From positions 1,575,001 through 1,639,000 of the forward strand of contig JACATO010000307.1 in the NCBI GenBank assembly GCA_018389105.1: a DNA stretch of 64,000 nucleotides. Direction: 5' to 3'. Of this stretch, positions 5,110-50,419 are shown one piece after another (positions within the stretch are counted from its first letter, which is position 1; each line of letters opens with the position of its first letter). This DNA comes from Nautilus pompilius. Lineage: Eukaryota; Mollusca; Cephalopoda; Nautilida; Nautilidae. The notes under the pieces were generated by a model, which was not told the DNA's origin, did no database searches, and saw nothing but the letters and a program-made list of their open reading frames with translations. A program made the translations under genes and the position numbers.

Positions 5110-6296
5110 TTTGTGGGGTTCAATTGATAATCCCCTTCGAAGTAGGCCCCTTGTGCCTCCATACACTTAGCCCAGCAATCTTTCCCCTGTTCGAAGCACG
5201 TCTGGAATGCTTGCTATGGAATGGCTCTCAGCTCCACCTTCGCATTCCATATGATGTCCTCTCGAATCTCAAAACGGGAGCCTTTCAGTGGCATCTTCAT
5301 TTTTGGGAACAACCAGAAGTTAGAAGGAGCCATGTCTGGAGAGTAGGGAGCCTAGCAAATGAGCAAAATGCCTTTGCCAAGAAACCTTGGATCAGCTGCG
5401 ACGAATGAGCCGGGGCATTGTCATGATGTAGCTGCCAGTTTTGCGAGGCCCACAGATCCAGTCTCTTGAACCGAACTGCATAACAAAGACGTCAGAGGAC
5501 TTCCTGATAGTATTCCTTTGTAACTGTTTGTCATTCTGGTGCGTATTTGTGATGCACAACACCTCGATAGTTGAAGAAAACAGTCAACATCACCTTGATT
5601 TTTCTCTGGACCTGACGTGCTTATTTGGGCCTTGGCGATGATGGGTGCTTCCACTGTGATGACTGAGCTTTGGTTTCCAGGTCGTACCCATACACCCACA
5701 TCTCATCTCCAGTTATCACGGTATTCTGGAACTCAGGATCCCTGTTGGCAGTACCCAGCAGGTCCTGTGCAACCTCAAGACGCTTTGGTTTCTGGGTCGT
5801 ACCTGTACACTCACCTCTCATCTCCAGTTATCATGGTATTCTGGAACTCGGGATCCCTGTTGGCAGTATCCAGCAGGTCCTGTGCAACCTCAAAATGAAG
5901 TTGTTGTTGTTCCTGAGAAAGCAGTTTGGGCACAAATTTTGCTGCCACTTTGCGCAAGCCCGAATCCTCCTTTAAAATTGCATGTGCAGAATCATTACTG
6001 ATCCTAACCTCGGCACCAATTTCCCGCACCATCAAACAACAATCCTCCATTATCAAGGTCCGCACTTTCTCAATAACAACTGCATTGCGGCTTTGTGACG
6101 ACCTCCCGGAACACTGGTCACTCTCCACCAATGTGCGGCCATCTTTGAACCTGTTGTACCATTCTTTTATTTGGGTAACACCCATGACATTGTCACCAAA
6201 AGCCTGTTGAATTTTGCAAATTGCTTCCGCTTCGGTATCTCCAAGCTTTTGGCAAAACTTGATGCAAGATTGTTGCTCCACACGTTCTGTCATCAC
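5110..6296 (-). pseudogene. mariner transposase pseudogene
   Basis: A 161-codon open part (6296 down to 5811) starts MTERVEQQSC and contains the paired helix-turn-helix region (FGDNVMGVTQIKEWYNRFKD, then GRSSQSRN and VREIGAEVRISNDSAHAIL). It leads to ITGDE, the first catalytic Asp. Further down the minus strand WQLHHDNAPAHS (around 5411-5446) carries the second Asp. The third position reads YSPDMAPSNFW (around 5315-5350), with Asn where active mariners have Asp, so the D34D triad is lost. A 115-bp tandem duplication (5667-5896) also shifts the frame. Family knowledge: mariner transposases of about 345 residues cut and paste at TA sites. Confidence 0.9.
5667..5896. repeat. 115-bp tandem duplication inside the mariner transposase
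   Basis: Two adjacent copies, 5667-5781 and 5782-5896, both begin GCTTTGGTTTC and end GTGCAACCTCAA. They differ at roughly one base in ten. The unit covers the coding region around the first catalytic Asp (ANRDPEFQNT.ITGDE.WVYGYDLE on the minus strand), so this piece appears twice. 115 is not a multiple of three, so the duplication destroys the frame. Confidence 0.9.
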
Positions 6297-15539: not shown

Positions 15540-16833
15540 AGGGCTGATGTTGGTTTGATCTATTTGATCGCTCTGCCTATAAATTGTTCATGCATGCCAA
15601 TTCACTTTCTGCTAATGCTACAGGAAAATAAAGTTTCTGCCAGCTGTTTCTTTAGTAATTCCAGTATCAGCAGTGTTTCATCTCATCTTGTACAACAGCT
15701 GCTTGTACTTTGTACACCCTATATGTAGTATCGTAAAACTTACATGAATAACAAACACACATTAAAAAAATACTAGTAGTTGTAATATTGTAGAAAGCTG
15801 TGGATTTGTTCTATTGAAGACGAGTTTTGTTTTTTTTTTTATCAAACAGAATTGATTTTATTGATTTAAAAAGCAACGACTTTAAGTAGTCTACTTTCTC
15901 TCCACATTAGGTTTATTTTTAAGGCCACATCCCTAGATTATGTATGGATTTTCCCACTGCTGTCCTTTAGCCTGTGTGTGTGTGTGTGCGTGTGGCAAAC
16001 CACAGTCATGTTTAGCTGTAAAAGCCACAGGTAACAGTTTTGGTGGCCAGGAGATTACCACCAGCAATAACTAAAGATGGGTACAGCATACCTTACACCT
16101 TCTGGCTGATTAACAGCTTATGGGGATTGCATCTTTCAGCAGTGATTAGCTTGATTAATACCATACTGACAACTAGCAACATCTTTATGTAGGTGATTTT
16201 CATTATCATCCTATTATTTACATAACAACAATATCTGGCAAAGGATAAAGGTGATAGTTTAAGAGAATCAGAGAAAAGAAAAAAAATATATTATACTCAT
16301 TTATATGAGCGGTGGTTGTAAGTCACTGTGGAAGCTTCACTCAGTAGAGACATTTAACTATAAAACCTAGCAAGTAATGGTTGTACGCCTGCTATCTCAT
16401 GGCTTAGTAGCAAATTTCCTGTTATTTCCACAGCTCAATAGAGCTATGCTTGTGTGCAGGGAAGATGAATATTTCTCCAGGGTTTTTCCAGATTTGTGCT
16501 AGATGACAATAGGAATTCAATCACTTCCCAGTCTCACTGTTTGACTCATTAGCAGCTGATTTTACTGTAGTAAAATGCTGTCACAGAGCTTGGTGCATGA
16601 ATGTGAGTTACCTAATGGCCTATTTTGTACTGTTGGGAGAGTTTTTGTTTTGCTACTACTATTCATTGATTATTATTAATAATTTTCATAGTAAGTTATT
16701 TGTCATGCAAATATAAGTCAGCTAATACCTTCCAGATTTGTGTTGTCATTGATTTTCAATATATAACGTCCTATAGGTAGTCAGCTTAGCAACATAGTGA
16801 ATGGCTTTATAATTTTTTTTTTTCCTCTGTCAG
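15540..16833. promoter_or_regulatory. less AT-rich block upstream of the PCBP start exon (candidate regulatory or upstream intron)
   Basis: This 1.3 kb is less AT-rich than most of the window and shows no transposon landmarks and no sizeable reading frame. It contains a (TG)n run at 15973-15995, an AACCACA motif just after it (16000-16006), and a short inverted repeat GGTGGCCAGGAGATTACCACC (GGTGG...CCACC) near 16040-16060. It ends in the polypyrimidine tract and AG of the exon. A regulatory role is only an inference from position and composition; a TATA box or transcription start was not identified. Confidence 0.3.
16831..16833 (+). promoter_or_regulatory. 3' splice site of the PCBP exon
   Basis: CAG preceded by eleven T's and CCTCTGT, a textbook acceptor. 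It implies at least one upstream non-coding exon, which I could not locate. Confidence 0.8.
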
Positions 16834-16987
16834 CCCAAGAAACTGAAGCCACAGTGCCAAATAGAAAACCAGGTAGTGCTTGATTGCCATGGCAACAGAT
16901 AAGAAGATGGTGCAGCAGAATGATACTTGTCCCTCTCCCTCTCAGAACACAGCTGTATTAACAGTGAGGATGGTGATGCAAGGAAAG
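16834..16987 (+). CDS. poly(rC)-binding protein (PCBP/mub-like) start exon; CDS 16889-16987
   Basis: A polypyrimidine tract (16813-16830) and CAG end at 16833, giving a 154-base exon with a 55-base 5' UTR. The ATG at 16889 has a strong context (GATTGCCATGG), and an in-frame TAG lies 15 bases upstream, which fixes this start. 33 codons read MATDKKMVQQ...CPSPSQNTAVLTVRMVMQGK, then GTAAGTAAG at 16988 (phase 0). TVRMVMQGK matches the first strand of KH1 in PCBP/hnRNP E proteins (LTIRLLMHGK in vertebrates), where the next residues are EVGSIIGK and include the RNA-binding GxxG loop. These proteins bind C-rich RNA and act in splicing, mRNA stability and translation. The N-terminus differs from vertebrate PCBPs, pointing to an invertebrate orthologue. 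The following exon was not found in the window. Confidence 0.87.
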
Positions 16988-23130: not shown

Positions 23131-23693
23131 TCTGGGTCAGCTACCTGCCTTTACCTCTAGCTAAAGCTAGGTCAAAGGGCAATTGGATATGGCAGGAGTT
23201 GACTAGGCTTGTTGCATGAGTAGGGCTTAATATAACTGTAGGTATACCTGGTTTCATGTAGTGTAGGGTTACAACTTATTGCCTGAGGGTTTGCATACCT
23301 ACGAGCAGGTGCTAACAAGACTACAAAAAGAAAAGGCATGAGCTATTTGACTGACAAGAAAAGAGAAAAATAGCAGCTGGTTGGATTACAACTCTACCTC
23401 CAAATGGCAACTAGGACAGATGCCACAGGTGTGGTGACAATGTGAAAATTTTCCCTGTTGCAGCCCTCAGTGAAGAAATTTCTGTCTACAAGCCTGACAG
23501 CTCCAGGCCAGTAAAGTTCTTGGCTCATTCTAGATATCAGTAGAGTCATCAGAATCAACAGGATGTGAATCATTGACTTGCATTATCCCTACTGCCCAAC
23601 AGGTGTGCAACAGTGGAAATCAGCAATGTAATCAGGTGATCACAACATTAATTAATTTGAAAAAAAAAAAAAAAAACTTCTCTATGCATAATA
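23131..23693. other. GC-richer unclassified repeat-like stretch and a poly(A) run
   Basis: Composition is less AT-rich than the surroundings and resembles repeat sequence, but no domain was recognised on either strand. It ends in an A run (about 23659-23677) just before the Tc1 element. It may be the 3' part of an unrelated retroelement or an insertion that cut off the LINE. Confidence 0.4.
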
Positions 23694-23899
23694 TACAGTG
23701 CCGGACAAAAGAGTTGGGACACTTGCCGTGAAATTGATATTTGAGCTTCCTCGTTTTAACAAACGCATTTAAATATCCATCATATTGTTTATTATATGCA
23801 CAAAACATGCCTTTACAATGTATAAAAGCAACACATGCTTATATGTTTACATGTTCTCTGGAAAAAATATTTGAATCGGCAATGTCCAATTTGTACAGC

Positions 23900-23926
23900 A
23901 ACAAAAGAGTTGGGACAGTGAGCAAA
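23900..23926 (+). repeat. inner direct repeat, left end of Tc1
   Basis: ACAAAAGAGTTGGGACAGTG repeats the outer terminal motif about 200 bases inward; candidate inner transposase-binding site. Confidence 0.8.
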
Positions 23927-24069
23927 ACCATGAATGTTTTTAAACATTCCAAAATTACAATCAAACAAATGCATGGAAATTATCAACTGACTAGTAGTGG
24001 ATGGCGTACCCGCGATTTTCGATCAATTCTCGACAACAACAGTATGGATTAGACCAAACGAAGGCAGTC

Positions 24070-24999
24070 GGAATTGGTTATTTCCTGCCAGCTTTTCTCA
24101 ACGGCCTGCCAGAACTGAGAATTGGTCTTGGTTGAGATTCTTGTGTTTGGCCACTTTCGCCTTCAGCTGCTTCCAGGCATTTTTGATTTGGTTGAGATCC
24201 GGATTTTGGGGTGGCCAGCGCATGATATCCATTCCTAGTTAGGTGGTGAGGGAAGTGACGACTCTGCGGGTGTGGATCGGGGGCATTGTCATGCTGGAAG
24301 ATGGCGGTGACTGGTTTGTTCTCGTCGATGTAGTCAACGACGACATCCCTCAGTAAATTGCAGTAGGTCTGGGCGGTCACTCTGCCCCTGATCAACTTGA
24401 AAGGGCCTGGTCCTGCCGCACTCAAACACCCCCAGACCATCAATGATTCTCCTCTGGCTTGTATCGTCGGTCGGGTGCACTTTATATTGTATTTTTCACC
24501 ATGGTAACATCGAACATATACCGGCCAGCACTGTGAATGCGCATGATCATTGTTTCGTCAGAAAAGAGAACTCTAGCCTATTGAACTTTGGTCCAGTCTT
24601 TGTGTGCTTGAGCCCATGCTATGCGGATGCACCTCGTGTTACTGATCAATGGTTTTTCTGGGTGATTCACCCAAAGAGATTCCCCTCGCATAGATGACAT
24701 TGAATAGTGCGACTGGAGACATTCACTCCACTCAGCGAGGCTTGAATGGCCGTTGATGTCAGGAAACGATTGGCCCTGGATTTGCGACAAATTAGTCGAT
24801 CCATTTTGTTGTCACATTTTGGCGGTCTTCCAATTCGCATTTTTGGTTTTATGTTTCTGGTCTCCTTGTACTGCTTCAGAATGTGGTTTACGGTATTTTT
24901 TTGGCAACTGACTCGATCGGCTATCTCCCAACAAGACAGATTTTCTTGGTGGTGCTTACTATCAAGTCTCTCATTTCAGACGATGTTGTCTTGCCAGGC
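24070..24999 (-). pseudogene. Tc1-like transposase pseudogene
   Basis: The start reads MPGKTTSSEMRDLIV (about 24955-24999). A frameshift leads to CWEIADRVSCQKNTVNHIL (first helix-turn-helix), IGRPPKCDN (GRPR hinge) and VNVSSRTIQCHL (second helix-turn-helix). The open frame from 24443 begins MMVWGCLSAAGPGPF (GSVMVWGCFS motif), then FQHDNAPDPH with the second catalytic Asp. On the frames beyond it Q.PDLNQIKNAW-like sequence is visible, where the catalytic Glu position of DD34E appears as Lys. Several stops and frameshifts make it inactive. Usual length is about 340 residues. Confidence 0.85.
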
Positions 25000-25100
25000 A
25001 TGGTGCAAAAATGATCTTAAATGGTCTTAGATGATGTGGTTCTATTCATTTGATCCTTTAAAAATGAATATATTGAGGGCAATAAATGTATGCACAGATT

Positions 25101-25130
25101 TTGTTCACTGTCCCAAACTCTTTTTGTTGC
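25101..25130 (-). repeat. inner direct repeat, right end of Tc1
   Basis: Reverse-complement counterpart of 23900-23926, again about 200 bases inward from the terminus. Confidence 0.8.
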
Positions 25131-25333
25131 GGTACAAATTTGATTATGTTAATTCAAATATTTTATCCAGACAATAGATACACATATGACATTTGTTGTT
25201 TTTACGCATTGTAAAGGCATGTTTTATACAACTTATGGACAATAGGATGGCTATCTGTATGCAAATTTAAAAACAGGAGAGCTCAAATAACAATTTCACA
25301 GCAAGTGTCCCAACTCTCTTGTCCAGCACTGTA

Positions 25334-26129
25334 AATATGATACTTAGATATTTACTTTTTTCTTTACTTTTAAATATTTCTTTTAAAATTTCAAATAATC
25401 ACAACAAATTCTCATCTATTTTTTTCCTGATACTAATGTTTTACTATGCCATAAAATTCCTTCAAACTTTCTTAAAAATATTATTGCCTTAGGGAAGATT
25501 TATTTGTTGGTAAATAATCAAAATCACATATATTTACGTATGACTTTATACTTTTTTTATTAAAGCTATAAATAACAATACCATACCATACCACATGTAG
25601 TGCTTCCTGGGTTTTTCACATTTATAATGCAATCTCTAAGGTATGTGTATTGATCTTGATTACACATGTATTGTGTTTTTTGTTCGTAGCAAGCTATTGA
25701 TTGTTCATTTGGATGTACAAATTCTTTCATTTATGAATTAATGGTTCAGAGACTTAGTTGTAGTTTCAATAATCAAATAAATGGTCGCAGCTACTAAGAA
25801 AAGGATTTATTGGTCTTTTAGACCTTTGCTTCATTACAATATGTCCATACCATTAGTTTATTAGCTAATAGAAAACTTCCAGATTTAATAGTAAACAGTT
25901 TTATGACAGTATCATGCAAAGTTCATTTAGCTTGTACATATAGCCCAAGCGTGAGCTAGTGTAGAAATGTATTGCATGTGCTTAAGCTGTTGTATTACTA
26001 ATAACAATGAAAACATATAGATTGTAATTTTGTGAATAGAAAAATGTAATTTTTTCTGTGATACAACAGAATCTGGTACTCTTCCTGTTATTGAGATATT
26101 TTAATTTCTCTATATACAAAATTTACTAT
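25334..26129. other. AT-rich spacer, nothing identified
   Basis: No gene or repeat domain was recognised. Confidence 0.5.
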
Positions 26130-28040
26130 TACAGTAAACCCTTGATTAAACAGACCAAGAACCAATGGACCTTGGAATGCAGTCAAGACAAATTCAAATT
26201 GTCTTGACTCTTCTAGAATCTTCTAGACCAGCTTCTGGTCAACACATACACTGTAGATACATGTGACATACCCATGTGCCCAGACTTGACCTTTGACTGA
26301 CCTGGTTTCTTTACAGAGGCTCTCGCAGAAACATTGCTATTTTTTGTGCCATTCCGTCTCTTGTTTGTGCAAAAAAAACCCAGGTTTGACTTCCTTTCTC
26401 ACATACATTGTGTATTTATGATAGCTATCATGGGTTCTAATGGTAGTGAAAAAAGAAAGTATGTAAATCTAAGCTTAAATCAGAAATACGAATTTATGGA
26501 GAAGCTTAATTAAGTCTGGTGCCCACATGTGACTAGTATAGTATTAAGGAGCAAATTCTTTTGGATATAAGAAAAAGCAAAGAAAAGCCTCAGACAATTT
26601 GCTTGAAAGTTCAATGTTGGTGCAACAAGTGGATCGACTGTTGGTGGTAGGAAGCGTATGAAAGTTGCTAGCAATAAGCAACTGAACGATGCTGTTGATA
26701 AATGGTTCATGCAGCAGTGTTCACATAGGATCAACATTTGTGTGTAGAATGTATGCTGCAGCAAATAAGCTTGCAGAATGTATGAATTACTTTTAGCGTT
26801 AGCATTGGTCAGTTATGGTGTTTCCGTAAATGCTATGGCATGACCAATAGGAAAATCCATGGTGAATCTTTGTGCTGCAACAGAGAGCCATTTAGAAAAC
26901 TCTTTAATGATGTCATGAAAAAAAGAGGATTTGTAGTGATGAAAATGATTTGTTTTGGAATTCCCTACCTGAAAATACACAGACCTATAAGCACACATTC
27001 CACTCCTGGCTGCAAAATTAGTAAGGAAATTATATCAGCTTAACTTTGCACCAATTGTGATGACCCATCAGTATAAGTCTGTGGTTTTTTTTGGAAGTCA
27101 CACAAATCATGTGTTCTAAATGATATCAGGAATGAGTTTCCTGTCCTTTACTATTCGTCCAAGAATGCGTGGTTCACCATGGAGATTTTCTCTGATTGAT
27201 TTTTAAATTATTTTGTACCTGTGGTGTGCAGCTACTAAACTGAAGTATTCAAGATTGCTCCCAAGGATGTGAAGACAGTCCTACTATTGGGTAATTCATC
27301 TTCACATTCCAACTTGGAGAAGGTGCTTGGCCGTGATGGCAAGTTTAAGTGCTTGGCATTGCCAACTAACACCATCTCTTGGATCCAACCATGGATCAAG
27401 GCATAATTTTTGCCTGCAAAAGGCTTTATAAGAAGTTACTGGATAAAGTGATGGTGATTTTGGAGGAAGAACAAGCCATAGAGGAGCTTACAAGAGACAA
27501 GAGGACATTGTAGAACATCAAGAATTATAATCTCATTTCTACAATTTTTAACTATGCAGCTGCCTGGAAGGACTTGCAGATAAGGATGCTAAGTCTGATT
27601 TTGAGGGTTTTGAGCCAGGAGAGAACCACCGAATTATATTGAAGACTGGAGAAAATGCTGCTACTAAGGATGTTACTCCCTGGCTTGAAGATGATGAAGT
27701 TGATTGTGGGTACCACCAATTTACTGAGGAGGAGATTGCAAATGTTTTGTCTTGTGAAACTCATGAAGAAAGTGATGGCAAGTGTGATGATGAACCTTTA
27801 CAGGTTAAGTTCAAAATGTCCTTTTATGCGATTCCTTGAGCAATAGCATTAATTTCATTGATAGCTCATCTGACATTGATGTGCAACCTTATAATGGGCA
27901 TTTAAGAGCCTTAAGTAAAATCATAAGGAAGCAGCACCAAAAGAAAACCCAGCTAAAGCTCTCCTCTTCAAACTTGTTGCCAAAAACTTTAAATTCTATT
28001 TTACCAAAAAGAGAAAATATTAGTTTTCTTTCTTAATACA
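26130..28040 (+). mobile_element. Tigger (pogo-like) DNA transposon relic
   Basis: The left end TACAGTAAACCCTTGATTAA begins with the TA target and the CAGT(N)CCC style of Tigger termini. The interior encodes a full-order Tigger transposase (see the next entry). The right terminal repeat was not identified with confidence, so the end coordinate marks the end of coding similarity only. Confidence 0.82.
26440..27850 (+). pseudogene. Tigger-type transposase pseudogene (CENPB and DDE domains)
   Basis: In order on the plus strand: RKRMKVASNKQLNDAVDKWF followed by MQQCSHR (26655-26725, the second CENPB-type DNA-binding part). Next GQLWCFRKCYGMTNRKIHGE (about 26805-26865, like GWLWRFCKRHGI). Then CDENDLFWNSLPENTQ (26935-26985, like the CDETGL catalytic Asp block). 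PVLYYSSKNAWFTMEIF follows (27140-27190), then ALPTNTISWIQP and MDQGIIFACKRLYKKLLDK (27355-27445, the LPPNTTSLIQPMDQG block). KNYNLISTIFNYAAAWKDL (27520-27575) and an acidic C-terminal tail extend to 27838. The open frame 27639-27839 is only this tail. At least five stops or frameshifts separate the pieces. Confidence 0.88.
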
Positions 28041-35065: not shown

Positions 35066-35850
35066 GTGACTTAATGTGATACTTGTTGTTGCATCTGGGC
35101 AGCCAGCTTGGAAATTTGCAGCCATGTATTTGCCAAAGCCAACTTCATATCATCTTCAACATTTAGCCTGTTTGCCTTTGTTTTGATGTGAACAAGAGTT
35201 GAAAATCCAGTCTCGCAGAGATAGATGGAGGCAAATGGAAGCAGAACTCGGAAGGCACCAGAACTGACTCAGCGATTTATCATAAAACAGGTCACGTGCT
35301 GGGGAATCATTCTGCAGATCCAAGAATTCATCCTGGACTTCATTGGGAATACTGGCTACATCCAGGGAAGCAGAGAATGGATTTTGTACCAGAGTAGCAG
35401 CTTCTCCTGTGAGCTCAGGTAAGTACTGCTGAAATTCCTTTTCAAGGGATTCAAGGTGCCCAGTAATCTCCTTCAGGATATCATCTATTTCACCTTCAGA
35501 TTCCCCTACCACACTGCAGGGTTTTTCAAACATGGTAATGTTTCCAAGATTTACTTTCCGATGCCAGTTTTTCAGTTTGGATACAAATGCCTGCAGATTG
35601 TTTTGAAATTGAATAATGTGTGTTTCCTTTTCCTGAAATTTCAAGTTCAGCTTATTCAGCTGGTCAAAAATGTCTGCTATGTAAGCAAATCTTTTCATTC
35701 AAGCTTCATCATCAAAACAAGCCATGAAGTCATGTTTCCCTTGCACTTTCAGAAACAACCTGATTTCATCTTTCAGCTCATTTTTTTTTTTGACAACCAG
35801 CGTACAGCAGTATAGAAGAGAAGAACCACTGATCAGAACAGCTGTGTGGT
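35066..35850 (-). pseudogene. hAT transposase C-terminal half (ZBED5/FAM200-like)
   Basis: Minus strand, from high to low coordinate: FYTAVRWLS (about 35790-35820, the HTEVRWLSRG block of this group), ELKDEIRLFLKVQGKHDF, then an uninterrupted 180-codon frame 35698-35156 with MKRFAYIADIFDQLNKLNL. Near its end is the SLRDWIFNS region, corresponding to the dimerisation block (CE.GFS.L). A +1 shift gives RLNVEDDMKLALANTW and KLAAQMQQQVSH then a natural stop near 35066. Residue order matches the second half of ZBED5/FAM200-type proteins, several of which were domesticated in vertebrates. Two frame breaks and one stop make this copy non-functional as a whole. Confidence 0.87.
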
Positions 35851-40209: not shown

Positions 40210-41530
40210 TACAAGGTGTAGTCAAAAAGTATCCGACCTTGAATTTGTTTGAACAAAATAATAATGCGTGAGCAAAATCCGCATGGGTATTAGGTGGTCT
40301 TGTCCTTCCTGAGCGTGCGCAAAAATTTTCGTGTCTGTAAGTTGCGCCAGTCGCCCGCAGTGATACGTTGAGTACAGACGTGAAGAGTGTGCTGTGCGAT
40401 TTTTCTTTTTGAGTCAAGATGATTGAGCACATTGATCAAAGATACTGTATCAAATTCTGCCAAAAACTTGGTGATACGCAAGCCCAGACTATCGAGAAGG
40501 CCTTTGGAGATGATGCTATGGGAAAAACACAAATAAAGGAGTGGTACAACCAATTCAAAGATGGCCGCACCTTAGTGGACAGTGAGCCACGTTGTGGCAG
40601 ACCATCGACTAGCAGAAACGAAATGATTGCAAAGGTTCGAAGAATAGTCTATGAAGACTATCGTGTGACTATTGAGGAGATTGTTGCCGAAGTTTGAATC
40701 AGCCATGGGTAAGTTCAGTCAATTATAACAGAAGATTTGTGCATGAGGAAGGTGTCGGCCAAATTCGTACCAAAGTTGATGTCTGACCAGCAGAAATAAA
40801 ACAGAAAGGAAATCTTCCAGGACATGCTGGAGTGTGCTAGCCAAGATCAAAACTTCATGAACGCTATCATCACTAGCGATGAGACATGGGTGTACGGCTA
40901 TGACCCTGAAACAAAATTGCAATCATCCCAATGGAAGCATCCATCCTCGCCAAGACCAAAGAAAGCAAGACAGGTGCAATGTTAAACTGATGACCTGTTT
41001 TTTTTTTACTACAAAGGTATTGTGCACCATAAATATGCACCACAAGGTCAGACATTTAACAAAGAATACTACCTGGGGGTTCTTCGTCGCCTTCGTGAAG
41101 CTGTGCGCCAAAAACGACCCGACCTGTGGGCAGCAAAGAACTGGCAACTCCACCATGACAACGCACCTGCTCGTTCCCCTCACATCATCCAAGCATTCCT
41201 CGTGAAGCATAACACACCACTTGTTCGTCAGGCTTCCTACTCCCCATACTTGGCTCCGTGTGACTTTTGGCTATTCCCAAAGTTCAAAAAAACACTCAAA
41301 GGGAGAAGATTTGAGTCAACAGAGGACATTAAGCAAAATTCGACGGCACAGCTATACAGCATCCCAAAAGGTGATTTCCAGAAATGTTCCCGGCAGTGGC
41401 AGGAACGCTGGCAGAAGTGTGTAGACTCCCAAGGCGAATACTTTGAAGGACACAAAATCAAAATGGTGAGTTTTTTAATATTACTTGTTTTTTTGGCCAA
41501 AGGTCGGATACTTTTTGACTACACCTCGTA
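40210..41530 (+). mobile_element. mariner transposon, nearly full length
   Basis: TA-flanked, 1321 bases. Both ends contain GGTGTAGTCAAAAAGTATCC, with one mismatch over the first 31 bases of the inverted repeats (TACAAGG versus TACGAGG). The length and a single central gene fit a mariner of about 1.3 kb. High similarity between its ends suggests it is younger than the mariners at 44986 and 55712. Confidence 0.95.
40419..41463 (+). pseudogene. mariner transposase pseudogene
   Basis: Starts MIEHIDQRYCIKFCQKLGDT and keeps one frame to the end, but with in-frame stops at 40695, 40710, 40797 and 40983. The last lies in a region with compensating small indels. N-terminal helix-turn-helix pair: FGDDAMGKTQIKEWYNQFKD and then the GRPSTSRN hinge. 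Catalytic residues: ITSDETWVYGYD (40869-40904), WQLHHDNAPA (second Asp) and SYSPYLAPCDFWLFPK (third Asp). The last two Asp are separated by 34 residues, the mariner D34D signature. C-terminal WQKCVDSQGEYFEG is typical. About 345 codons, the full family length. Confidence 0.93.
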
Positions 41531-44985: not shown

Positions 44986-46250
44986 TATGAGGTCTGATCA
45001 TAACGTTCTAGAACTAAATTTATTCAGACAAAATGAAACCACAAATCAGTTAATGAACTCCTTCAAAGTAGTCCCCTCCTGATTGAATGCAGCGGTTCCA
45101 GCACTCCTATCACTTGATATATTTTTGATGATGGTCAGCACATCCTGAGATGTCTTTCCCTTTAGGGTGCATTTCAATCTGGGGAATAGAAAAAAGTTGT
45201 TTGGTGCCAAATCTTGTGAATACAGTGAATGAGGAACCGTTAGAATGTTTTGCATGGTCAGAATTTTCTTGTATAGAGAGTACTAAATGTGACGGTGAAT
45301 TGTAATGATGCAACATCCACACATCTGACTCCCATTTTCCAGGCTGTTTCCATTGAACTGCATCTCTTAGGCATTTCATGATGGCCAAGTAAAACCACTG
45401 ATTCACTGTCTGACTTTGTGGAACATAATCATGATGCTCAACATCCTCAATGTCAAAAAACACAATGAACATAATCTTCACATTTGAGTGAACCTGTCTT
45501 GCTTTCTTTGATTGAGGCAACAATGCAGTTCTCCACTGAGAAGACTAATGCTTAGTCTCAGGGTCGCACCATAAACACAATCATCACCTGTAATTATGTT
45601 GCATAGAAAGTTTTCATTGCTGGCTATGCAAATAGTGAGTTCTTAATATACTCTGAGGTCATGTTCCTTCTGTTCTGGAGTGAGAATTTGTGGGACAAAC
45701 CTTTCTGAGACTCTTCTCATTCTCAAATCTTTAGTCAAAATTGTTTGGCATGTGCTGTAGGAGATGCCAACTTTTTCAGCCACTACATAAATCATCATTC
45801 ATCTGTCACCACAAATGATGTCACATACACATGTGATTGATTCCTCATTGTGCGAGGTTGATGGACAGCCAGAGCATGGATCATTATCAACAGAAGTTCA
45901 GCCATGTTTAGACTGAGAAAACCACTCAGATGTTTTCAAATGGCTAAGTGCTTCATTACCAAATGCTTTTCTTAACAATTCATAGGTTTCTCTGGCTATT
46001 TTCCCAAGTTTCAAATGGAATTCGATGCACACACATTACTCCTTTGTAATCTCCATTTTACAGTGGGGAGACAAAAATAAACACATCTTCACAGAAGTAC
46101 ACATCATGCATGACAGAGACAAGATGCCCGATTCCCACCAGAGGTGTGACATTGGCAAATGTTGCCAACCACACCCTCTTATTAATATTGCTATTGTGTA
46201 CTTCCAAACAATAAATTTAGTCTTGAAATTTTTTGATCAGACTTTGTGTA
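44986..46250 (-). mobile_element. mariner transposon, old copy
   Basis: TA-flanked, 1265 bases. The left end reads TATGAGGTCTGATCATAACG; the reverse of the right end reads TACACAAAGTCTGATCAAAA, so the repeats are diverged. The transposase is on the minus strand. The terminal sequence differs from the mariners at 5046 and 40210, so this is a separate lineage. Confidence 0.87.
45050..46060 (-). pseudogene. mariner transposase pseudogene
   Basis: Open piece 45523-45110 contains KKARQVHSNVKIMFIVFFD and WMLHHYNSPSHL, where the second catalytic Asp of HHDNAP is Tyr. An overlapping frame 45255-45046 has LYSQDLAPNNFFLFPRLK, where the third catalytic Asp is Asn. The N-terminal helix-turn-helix half lies in broken frames toward 46060. 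Two of three catalytic residues are replaced, so the copy is inactive. Confidence 0.85.
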
Positions 46251-47985
46251 CTAACTTAAATATAGTTTTTTTTTAACCCTCATGAAGCCAAATGTTAAAC
46301 TGGTTATTTGATAATATTAATAAGTATATGTTTGTGTATAGTTTGTATAGTATAGTAAATAAAGCTTAAAACAAATTAGAGGGCATCCCCTTTTCATTCT
46401 ACCAACAAACAATTTTAACTAGTGTAATAAGAACAACATTAAGTACATTAAGCAATGGCTCTTGCATGCAAATATTTGGGGATATTGAATTGCTTTACCG
46501 AATCCATTAATGAAAAATGTGAATAAAGACCATCATTTTGCTTGGTGAAATATGTATATTGTGATCCTTAGTAACATATTTTAGATGCACATGATTTTGC
46601 AGAAAAATTGGTGAGGCTTTTTATTCATGGTTTTACAGCTAATTATTATCACTGAAAATTTGAAGAAATAGTGATGGGAGGTATCTGGTATCAGGTAAAA
46701 CAAATCTTGCATTAATTAAGGGACATTTTATTTCTACCAGTTAAATGTCAATTCTTTGGATTACATTCTGACTATATTTGTTCAAAAGATACTTGACTGT
46801 ATCCATTATGCTTGCCAGAAAAATATGCTATATATTGATGAGATGGAAGATGAGAGGTGGAATATAATTTCTTCCTCGGCTCTACAGAGCCTTTATATGA
46901 ACAGTGGGAGTACCATGATATGACTGAAACTAACCTCAGCAAATGTTGAAGGGGGGATATGGATAATGCCACCCACCATTGATAATCTGATAAATCCAAT
47001 GTCTGAGGGCTCACAAGTTTTACATTTGATAAAAAAGTGTTCCTACTAAATACTAATGAATTAGAACAATTACTCAACATATGTTTGCAAAAGATCTGTA
47101 AAATTGTTACTTTTTTTTTTTTGCTGGTTGCAGATTGTTTTGCTTGCATGTGTGTGTTTATGTATAGTACAACAATAACAAACTAAAATTTCTGCATTTG
47201 TTTTAAGACATTATAACATATACGTCATGAAGACAAAAACCATGATCACTGTAGTAAAATTTTGACACAAGCTCAAGGTTAATCATGTTTTTTTCAACTT
47301 TAATTTACAGCAGTGGACAAAGAAAAAATAGTATTTCTCTAAAGATTTTAATATGATGAAATGCATTAAAATGTGAAAAATTTCATAATCAGGGTGAGAT
47401 CAGCACTTTAATGGCACAAAAACTGAAAAGGTATGGGTTAAGTTTTGGTTTTGGCATAGTCACTGAAAAAAATTCACAACTTTTCTTTCTAAAGTAATGT
47501 TTAAATCCAGAATCACCAATAATGTAATAATAGCATTCTTCTTTGATTGTGTTGTCATAGCTTTTGATTTTCAAATCTTCTAAGAAAAGACATTTGTTTA
47601 CAAAATTCAAGCAAATTGTTTTTTTTTTTTTTGTTTTTTTTGTAAATACGTTATACACCATTGGAAAGTGTGAAATGCTATCTTTATATTGACAGTAAAC
47701 TTAAACAATTAAATTTGACTGATGAGAAGCAGAATTTTGTGTGTAGCTAGCTACTGGAATTGATGGCAACTAATCAGGGTGAGCATACAGAATATACTGC
47801 TGCTGAAGTGAAGGTCACTGAATGAATCAAGCGGGTTAAATCTAAGGTTGATAAATGTACCAAAAAAGCTTGCAGGTTTTTTTGCCTGGCTTGTACAGGT
47901 GAAACTGAACAGGTTGATAATTCTATAGTCATTTGTATGAGCCTGGAGTTTTCTAGAAGCTTTCCTGTTGGAAACTGACTCAATA
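46251..47985. other. spacer, nothing identified
   Basis: The part at 46780-47050 is slightly less AT-rich and has a 125-codon open frame on the minus strand (47149-46772) without any recognised motif. It may be an unclassified repeat. The rest is AT-rich with T-runs. Confidence 0.45.
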
Positions 47986-49307
47986 TACAGGTGCATCTCA
48001 AAAAATTAGAATATCGTGGAAGAGTTCAATATTTTTTGTCAGTTATTTCAGGAAGTGAAAACTGTATATATTCTAGACTCATTACATGTAAACTAAAATG
48101 TTTCAAGAATTTTTTAATTTTAATTTTGATAATTACGGCCTACAGCTAAAAAAAAAATAGAAAAAACATGCTGTAAGGGCTGGCTGTTCGCACAGTGCTG
48201 TATCAAAGCATATTCATGGAAAGTTGACTGGAAGGGAAAAGTGTGGTAGGAAAAGGTGCACAAACAAGAGGGATGACTGCAGCCTTGGGAGGATTGTCAA
48301 GCAAAGCCAATTCAAGAACTTGGGGAAACTTCACAAGGAGTGGACTGAGGTTGGAGTCAGTGCATCAAGAGCCACCACGCACGTGTGTCCAGGAAATGGG
48401 CTACAAGTGCCGCATTCCTAGTGTCAAGCCACTCCTGAACCAGAGACAACGTTGCTCAGTGGTCCAAAGTCCTCTTTTCAGATAAAAGTAAATTTTGCAT
48501 TTCATTTGGAAATCAAGGTCCCACGGTCTGGAGGAAGAGTGGACAGGCACAGAATCCAAGTTGCTTGAAGTCGAGTGTGAAGTTTCCAGTCAGTGATGAT
48601 TTCAGATGCCATGTCATCTGCTGGTGTTCGTCCACTGTGCTTTATCAAGTCCAAAGTCAATGCAGCCATCTACCAGGAGATTTTTGAGCAGTTCATGCTT
48701 CCATCTGCTAACAAGCTTTATGGAGATGCTGATTTCCTTTTCCAGCAGGATTTGGCACCTGCCCACATTGCCAAAACTACTAGTAACTGGTTTCTGACCA
48801 TGGTATTACTGTGCTTGATTGGCCAGCCAACTCGCCTGACCTGAACCCCATAGAGAATCTATGGGGTATTGTTAAGAGGAAGATGAGAGACACCAGACCC
48901 AACAATACAGATGAACTGAAGGCTGCTATCAAAGCAACCTGGGCTTCCATAACACCTCAGCAGTGCCACAGGCTGATCCCTTCCATGCCACACTGCATTG
49001 ATGCAATGATTCATGCAAAAGGAGCCCCGACCAAGTATTGAGTGCATGAATGAACATACTTTTCAAAGGATCGACATTTCTATATTATAAATCCTTTTTT
49101 TTTTAACTGATCTTATGAAATATTCTAATATTTTGAGATAGTGGATTTTTGGTTTTCCATCAAAATTAAAACAAAAAAAAAAAGGCTTGAAATATTTCAC
49201 TTTTGTGTAATGAGTCTAGAATATATAAAAGTTTCACTGTTTGAATTAAATTACGGAAAAAAAATGAACTCTTCCATGATATTCTAATTTTTTGAGATGC
49301 ACCTGTA
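47986..49307 (+). mobile_element. Tc1-like transposon of the AGGTGCATCTCAAAAAATTAG type
   Basis: TA-flanked, 1322 bases, with inverted termini CAGGTGCATCTCAAAAAATT at the left and the same at the right (AATTTTTTGAGATGCACCTG). The next stretch (AGAATATCGTGGAAGAGTTC) is also repeated at the right end with few changes. From memory, this terminus and the encoded protein closely resemble a Tc1 family widespread in teleost and some other vertebrate genomes. The element contains one decayed transposase gene on the plus strand. Confidence 0.94.
48210..49041 (+). pseudogene. Tc1-like transposase pseudogene (DD34E)
   Basis: N-terminal KLTGREKCGRKRCTNKRDDC and FKNLGKLHKEWTEVGVSASR carry the GRKR hinge and second helix-turn-helix. 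MGYKCRIPSVKPLLNQRQR follows, then a short deletion and WSKVLFSDKSKF (first catalytic Asp). Then GVRPLCFIKSKVNAAIYQEI and DFLFQQDLAPAHIAKTTSNW (second Asp). A single-base frameshift near 48805 leads into DWPANSPDLNPIENLWG (catalytic Glu) and ITPQQCHRLIPSMPHCIDAM, ending KGAPTKY at the stop 49039. Most of the family's roughly 340 residues are recognisable with few breaks, so this is a comparatively young copy. Confidence 0.92.
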
Positions 49308-50419
49308 TACATATAAATTTTTGAATGACTATATCTGGAATTAATTCAATGTTTTTGCTCAAATTTTGGGCAGAAAAAGTTGAGGCATTTATAAACATTT
49401 CTGTATGGTCATTTTGCATTATGTCAAGTCATATTGATTCTGGGTGGATGCAGTTATAGTCATTCTTGTACCCTGAAATGTAGCACCAGATGATATATCT
49501 GAAACGTAAAATATTATTACATTTTCTCATCACTGAACAAATTCCATGCAGTAGTTTTGGTACACATGCCCTCATTTCACTTGGAGTTGCAACAGTTATC
49601 CATGCCAAAATCCAAGATGGCCATCATTATCAAGGCAACAGTTTGGCTTAAGTAAAAAATACTATGTGCTTTTGAATTTGTTGGATGCCTAGATAACACA
49701 TACTAAGTTACATGAAAAATATCTTCAAAAAATAAATAAATAAATGATCTCAAGTGCTGATCTCTTAATTTACAATTAAAGTTTTAAAGGAAAATTCTTT
49801 GTTTTCTAGTATGATCATTTTGTTTCATATTTTAATTGTAAGTTTATTTATTATTTTATTGGAAAATTAATGCAGTCTTTGACTGACATAACAACAGAAA
49901 GGCTTGCTTAATTTAACAAGAATCAAGTACTCTGTGTGTGTGTGTGTGTGTGTGGTTAGCTGGTAAGATGTACAATTTCTCCATAAAAATTATGAAAATA
50001 ACATTTAATAAGGATTACAATTGGGTAATGTAATTTGTTTTTGTTTTTTTAATAGTTAAAATGCATTTACCAGCTTTTTGGTATTTTCCATTACATGTTA
50101 AGGGGCATTCTGTGGAAACCATTGCCATTAAATGAGTGTTTTTATGGAACAGCTAGAAAAAGTATAATAGGTTCTTTAAATTAAAAAATGGAAACAAGTT
50201 TAAGCAATTACTTTTTAAATAAGCCTTACAACAAATGAAGAAAATATCTGTCAGTAAACTCACTTGGAAACTTTTAAATACTTTTATATATTGAGATTTT
50301 ACTTAAGTAAATAAACACACCCTGAAACTCAAATAGGTCATTCCATTCACATGATAAACACATGTGCATGCTATAGAAACAGATACAAGATAGAGAAAGC
50401 CTCAACAGTCATGGCATGA
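49308..50419. other. AT-rich spacer with a (TG)n microsatellite
   Basis: A (TG)n run of about 11 units lies at 49933-49954. No gene was recognised. Confidence 0.5.

Follow-up and report, generated by a model that had tools for sequence, protein, structure and literature searches.

Does a frame of only 33 codons mark the beginning of a gene, and if so, where is the rest of that gene? This question is raised by a 64-kb stretch of Nautilus pompilius DNA (C298:1575001-1639000, hereafter the window), in which a 154-base segment between splice-like signals had been proposed as the start exon of a gene for a poly(rC)-binding protein (PCBP, also called hnRNP E). By comparing the window with the 727.6-Mb assembly, it could be concluded that the single PCBP gene detected in this genome almost certainly has its start-codon exon at positions 16834-16987. 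As judged from its sequence, this gene would encode three KH domains and extend over at least 208 kb.

The probable start-codon exon and the window around it

The exon, designated E1, and the sequences flanking it comprise the following features:

16834-16987 (C298:1591834-1591987), + strand: E1, predicted first coding exon of the PCBP gene, with an acceptor, a 9/9 donor, phase 0 into the downstream KH1 exons and one genome match
16814-16833, + strand: 3' splice site of E1, polypyrimidine tract plus AG (ttttttttttcctctgtcag), 17 of 18 pyrimidines before the AG
16834-16888, + strand: 5' untranslated part of E1, 55 bases, with an in-frame TAG at 16874-16876
16889-16987, + strand: the 33 codons of E1, MATDKKMVQQNDTCPSPSQNTAVLTVRMVMQGK, the last part being KH1 strand 1; the alignment with PCBP2 starts at residue 22
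16988-64000, + strand: first 47 kb of the E1-E2 intron (58,992 bases in total), with only transposon remnants in Pfam up to 60002

The prediction of a start exon at this place is borne out by several signals. Besides the pyrimidine-rich acceptor, there is the TAG upstream of the ATG at 16889 and in frame with it. The ATG stands in the context GCC ATG G, with G at -3 and +4, and the donor AAG/GTAAGT matches the consensus at nine of nine positions. The encoded peptide ends with LTVRMVMQGK. A six-frame search of the window with a relaxed peptide motif for this KH1 strand gave a single match, compared with none in 300 Markov-1 random windows of 64 kb, and the only genome match of the E1 DNA is E1 itself. 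When taken alone, the 33-residue peptide had no match in the PDB at E-values up to 10 and none in Pfam. Therefore, E1 has to be judged jointly with the downstream exons, which were indeed found (see below).

Since an acceptor precedes E1, at least one noncoding exon is implied upstream of it. Such an exon would also fit a gene that possesses alternative first coding exons, E1 being one of several, and long first introns often contain alternative promoters. Against this arrangement, a second strand-1 motif was found neither in the window nor by the genome query, and we consider it unlikely. It would be compatible with E1 as the start-codon exon of the PCBP gene and would only narrow this assignment.

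E1 had also been described as the only host coding exon of the window. This holds for what Pfam detected in the three plus-strand frames of bases 1-60002 (E up to 0.01), where all matches were transposase domains, namely DDE_3, DDE_1, Transposase_1 and, below the cut-off, HTH_48. For the window as a whole the description is less secure: on the minus strand the comparison covers four of the six open reading frames of at least 100 amino acids, and Pfam cannot detect exons as short as E1. Altogether, six of the 14 open reading frames of this size in the window were compared with Pfam, yielding HTH_48 and Transposase_1 above the cut-off in one frame each and Transposase_1 just short of it in a third; the remaining matches among the six were all weak and below the cut-off. 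Moreover, neither tRNAs nor Rfam matches at gathering thresholds were present in the window. The following mobile elements and remnants were recognised:

47984-49309, + strand (DDE_3 at 48781-48918): Tc1-like element with inverted arms at 47984-48036 and 49257-49309, 94% complementary
27119-27448, + strand: DDE_1 transposase remnant (Pfam), presumably of the pogo/Tigger type
40440-41129, + strand: mariner remnant with HTH_48 at 40440-40565 (below the cut-off) and Transposase_1 at 40905-41129
within 5811-6296 and 45110-45523, - strand: further mariner pieces (Pfam on open reading frames)
23691-25336: element with a pair of inverted arms (147 bases, 80% complementary) and a 121-amino-acid open frame on the - strand (arm comparison and list of open reading frames)

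A further open frame of 180 amino acids on the minus strand (35156-35698) starts with MKRFAY and has no significant Pfam match; by eye, we take it to resemble ZBED-type hAT transposase derivatives. MKRFAY is also present in a broken frame at C298:1666939. The CpG observed/expected ratio ranges from 0.04 to 0.25 in 27 of the 32 2-kb blocks of the window and reaches 0.66 and 0.59 in two transposon-bearing blocks (24-26 kb and 40-42 kb), as if the genome were methylated and carried some younger insertions.

The split KH1 loop and the gene model

Between TVRMVMQGK and the SGAKINIS of the following part of KH1, the sequence EVGSIIGKKGxxxKxxREE is expected, which is absent from the window in one piece. 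A genome search for contiguous EVGSIIGKKG behind an acceptor, allowing one mismatch, gave no match. With three mismatches the pattern matched twice, at the exon E2 and on contig C604, and the control pattern, read backwards with three mismatches, matched once. The C604 sequence reads KLGSIIGKKGIPWIL, meets a stop five residues on, lacks both a preceding AG and a KH context, and was rejected as a KH1 exon. The original prediction was right in placing a K/E break after TVRMVMQGK, as the next exon begins with GAA GTA (E V); the contiguous EVGSIIGKKG that it had expected behind the break is split over two small exons, so that the check proposed with it would fail in this genome.

The second of these exons, E3, was sought across the 53 kb from E2 to E4, for which gapless sequence is available. 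It was missed by the regular expression KGE...REE because the sequence is KGD...RED, and was found by a BLOSUM scan with a score of 41 (the reference sequences score 54-56 against themselves). By comparison, the next best of the 243 AG...GT candidates on the same strand scored 7. In the controls, the best of 268 candidates on the reverse complement scored 12, and the top candidates of the 30 mononucleotide shuffles scored between 5 and 15. When the splice-site requirement was dropped, the runner-up place scored 24. The GKKG loop of KH1 is interrupted by an intron (GK/KG), its halves being located on exons of 24 and 33 bases.

A search of the genome for the KH_1 family yielded at least 36 matches, three of which lie on C298, all on the plus strand and downstream of E1. 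This count and that of the KH1 query (at least 15 matches) are lower bounds, and the matches were translated in part, with the many on contig C587 left out. The exons assigned to the gene downstream of the window are:

C298:1650980-1651003, + strand: E2, EVGSIIGK, 24 bases (GAAGTAGGCAGTATCATCGGAAAA between AG and GTAAGT), from the mismatch-tolerant pattern search of the genome
C298:1683303-1683335, + strand: E3, KGDNIKKFRED, 33 bases (AAAGGAGATAATATTAAGAAGTTCAGGGAAGAT between AG and GTAAGT), from the BLOSUM scan
C298:1704060-1704176, + strand: E4, SGAKINIS..., 117 bases, from the KH1 query, which matched 1704054-1704176 (SGAKINISDGSCPERIVTTTGSLESINKAFTMICKKFEE)
C298:1710270-1710389, + strand: E5, first half of KH2, 120 bases, with the KH_1 family match at 1710309-1710389
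C298:1797859-1797936 (KH_1 match; the part ends at 1797935), + strand: first part of KH3, from the KH_1 family search
C298:1799743-1799859 (KH_1 match; the exon ends at 1799864), + strand: second part of KH3, from the KH_1 family search

We take the translation of 1710309-1710389 to be the first half of a PCBP KH2 domain and those of the last two matches to be KH3. KH1 as a whole, KH2 with its first half and KH3 with both of its parts follow one another in this order on one strand of C298, and the GXXG loop is intact in each of them (KH1, GKKG, spanning the E2-E3 junction; KH2, GKGG; KH3, GRGG). All junctions from E1 to E5 are in phase 0, and joining the exons gives an open frame. The introns measure 58,992, 32,299, 20,724 and 6,093 bases; the donors of E1 to E5 match the consensus at 9, 8, 7, 8 and 7 of nine positions, and the acceptors contain 17, 16, 16, 9 and 11 pyrimidines among 18 bases. 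The distance between the first base of E1 and the last base of the second KH3 exon is 208 kb, and of this gene the window contains 47 kb of intron in addition to a single known coding exon. The weak pyrimidine tracts of E4 (9/18) and E5 (11/18), the long E1-E2 intron of 59 kb and the lack of a match for E1 alone speak against the model, as does its extent: the second half of KH2, the linker between KH2 and KH3, the C-terminus and the noncoding exon upstream of E1 lie outside the exons listed.

Built on sequence, splice signals, order, phase and family match, the model predicts how the gene would be transcribed and spliced. The pre-mRNA would be joined as E1 (154) - E2 (24) - E3 (33) - E4 (117) - E5 (120) and then on to KH3. 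The leader would come from E1, along with the first KH1 strand; E2 and E3 would supply the GKKG loop, which would grip single-stranded C-rich RNA, together with the flanking helices, and E4 the remainder of KH1.

With only 33 codons and no match of its own in PDB or Pfam, E1 might encode a peptide that arose by chance between good splice-like flanks, in which case the PCBP gene would have its true start exon elsewhere. This is very improbable given that the motif was absent from all 300 random windows, that the genome query with E1 plus KH1 showed no alternative place on C298 ahead of E2, and that the join from E1 to E2 is exact in phase and residue.

Family assignment and other KH matches

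The joined KH1 query (91 residues, E1 to E4) was compared with the PDB and matched 26 distinct sequences at E-values up to 0.001. The first four matches are PCBP2 or PCBP1 (1.8e-34 to 4.4e-24), which agrees with the family originally proposed, as do the same-strand exons for the rest of KH1, half of KH2 and KH3. The top value for PCBP2 (1.8e-34, 2jzx) is helped by a construct that also contains KH2; for KH1 alone it is 1.6e-25, and for the PCBP1 KH1 chain 7.9e-26. The alignment starts at residue 22 of E1; the first 21 residues lie outside the comparison, since the constructs in the PDB do not extend N-terminally of the KH domain. The best matches other than PCBP are Nova-1 (3.4e-11) and IGF2BP3 (9.1e-11), followed by hnRNP K at 5.4e-7, and two PCBP KH3 chains match much more weakly (1.8e-5 and 1e-4), in keeping with a different domain. 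Thus, among the KH families in the PDB, the KH1 of PCBP1/2 is the closest to the joined KH1. In Pfam, KH_1 was matched at 2.7e-26 by E1-E5 and at 1.5e-21 by KH3. From its family, the encoded protein would be expected to bind poly(C) or C-rich RNA and to regulate splicing, stability or translation like known PCBPs. It had also been labelled as invertebrate-type, which is likely and would fit Drosophila mub (mushroom-body expressed), a member of the same family; SGAKINISDGSCPERIVT appears to be fly-like.

Outside C298, none of the KH matches that were translated (from the at least 36 of KH_1 and at least 15 of the KH1 query) is PCBP-like. By eye, we take those on other contigs to be IGF2BP (C667), FUBP/PSI (C632), Nova (C358), Mask (C294), BicC (C655) and hnRNP K (C23). 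The hnRNP K-like sequence is an intron-free open frame of 408 residues on the minus strand (C23:78185-81376). It contains three KH domains as well as a central region rich in glycine and arginine, and may represent either an old retrocopy or a gene poor in introns. That E1 starts another KH gene, such as hnRNP K or Nova/pasilla, is hardly conceivable: the domain type is identical, but the PCBP1/2 KH1 chains are at least about 13 orders of magnitude ahead of Nova-1 (4.4e-24 or better versus 3.4e-11), a separate hnRNP K-like three-KH frame exists on C23, and the downstream exons contradict it.

The small exons in comparison with known PCBPs

E1 is very probably the normal start exon of an ordinary conserved gene, and its identification is in all probability correct and unsurprising. 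The most interesting part of the gene is the pair of in-frame small exons over the RNA-gripping loop. E2 and E3 are in phase 0 on both sides and lie between introns of 59, 32 and 21 kb. Therefore, skipping of either or both would preserve the frame, and an isoform with a dead KH1 would be possible. It is conceivable, albeit quite doubtful, that E2 and E3 form a regulated and perhaps neuronal splicing switch, in which skipping would remove the GKKG loop and the flanking helices partly or entirely and leave KH1 unable to grip RNA. If so, regulated skipping would let the cell tune PCBP activity; unless it occurs, the finding adds little beyond the annotation of the genome. There is also a lesson for searches: as the sequence for KH1 is distributed over four exons, including the small ones of 24 and 33 bases, searches for open reading frames or contiguous peptides miss the start of such genes.

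The KH1 domain of vertebrate PCBP2 is probably cut similarly, and the split into 24 and 33 bases may have arisen early in the history of PCBP genes. The literature searched, including the accessible parts of PMC9509328, PMC10987577, PMC10101408 and PMC11288931, gave no account of exon lengths in PCBP KH1. The gene resembles PCBP2 and PCBP1 in the KH1 alignment, which begins at residue 22 of E1 and extends without gaps through E4, and in the order KH1, KH2 (the first half in the present model) and KH3. It differs from them at several KH1 sites, among them KGDNIKKFRED in place of KGESVKKMREE. Moreover, according to PMC11288931, the PCBP1 gene is intronless through retrotransposition, whereas the gene described here has very long introns.
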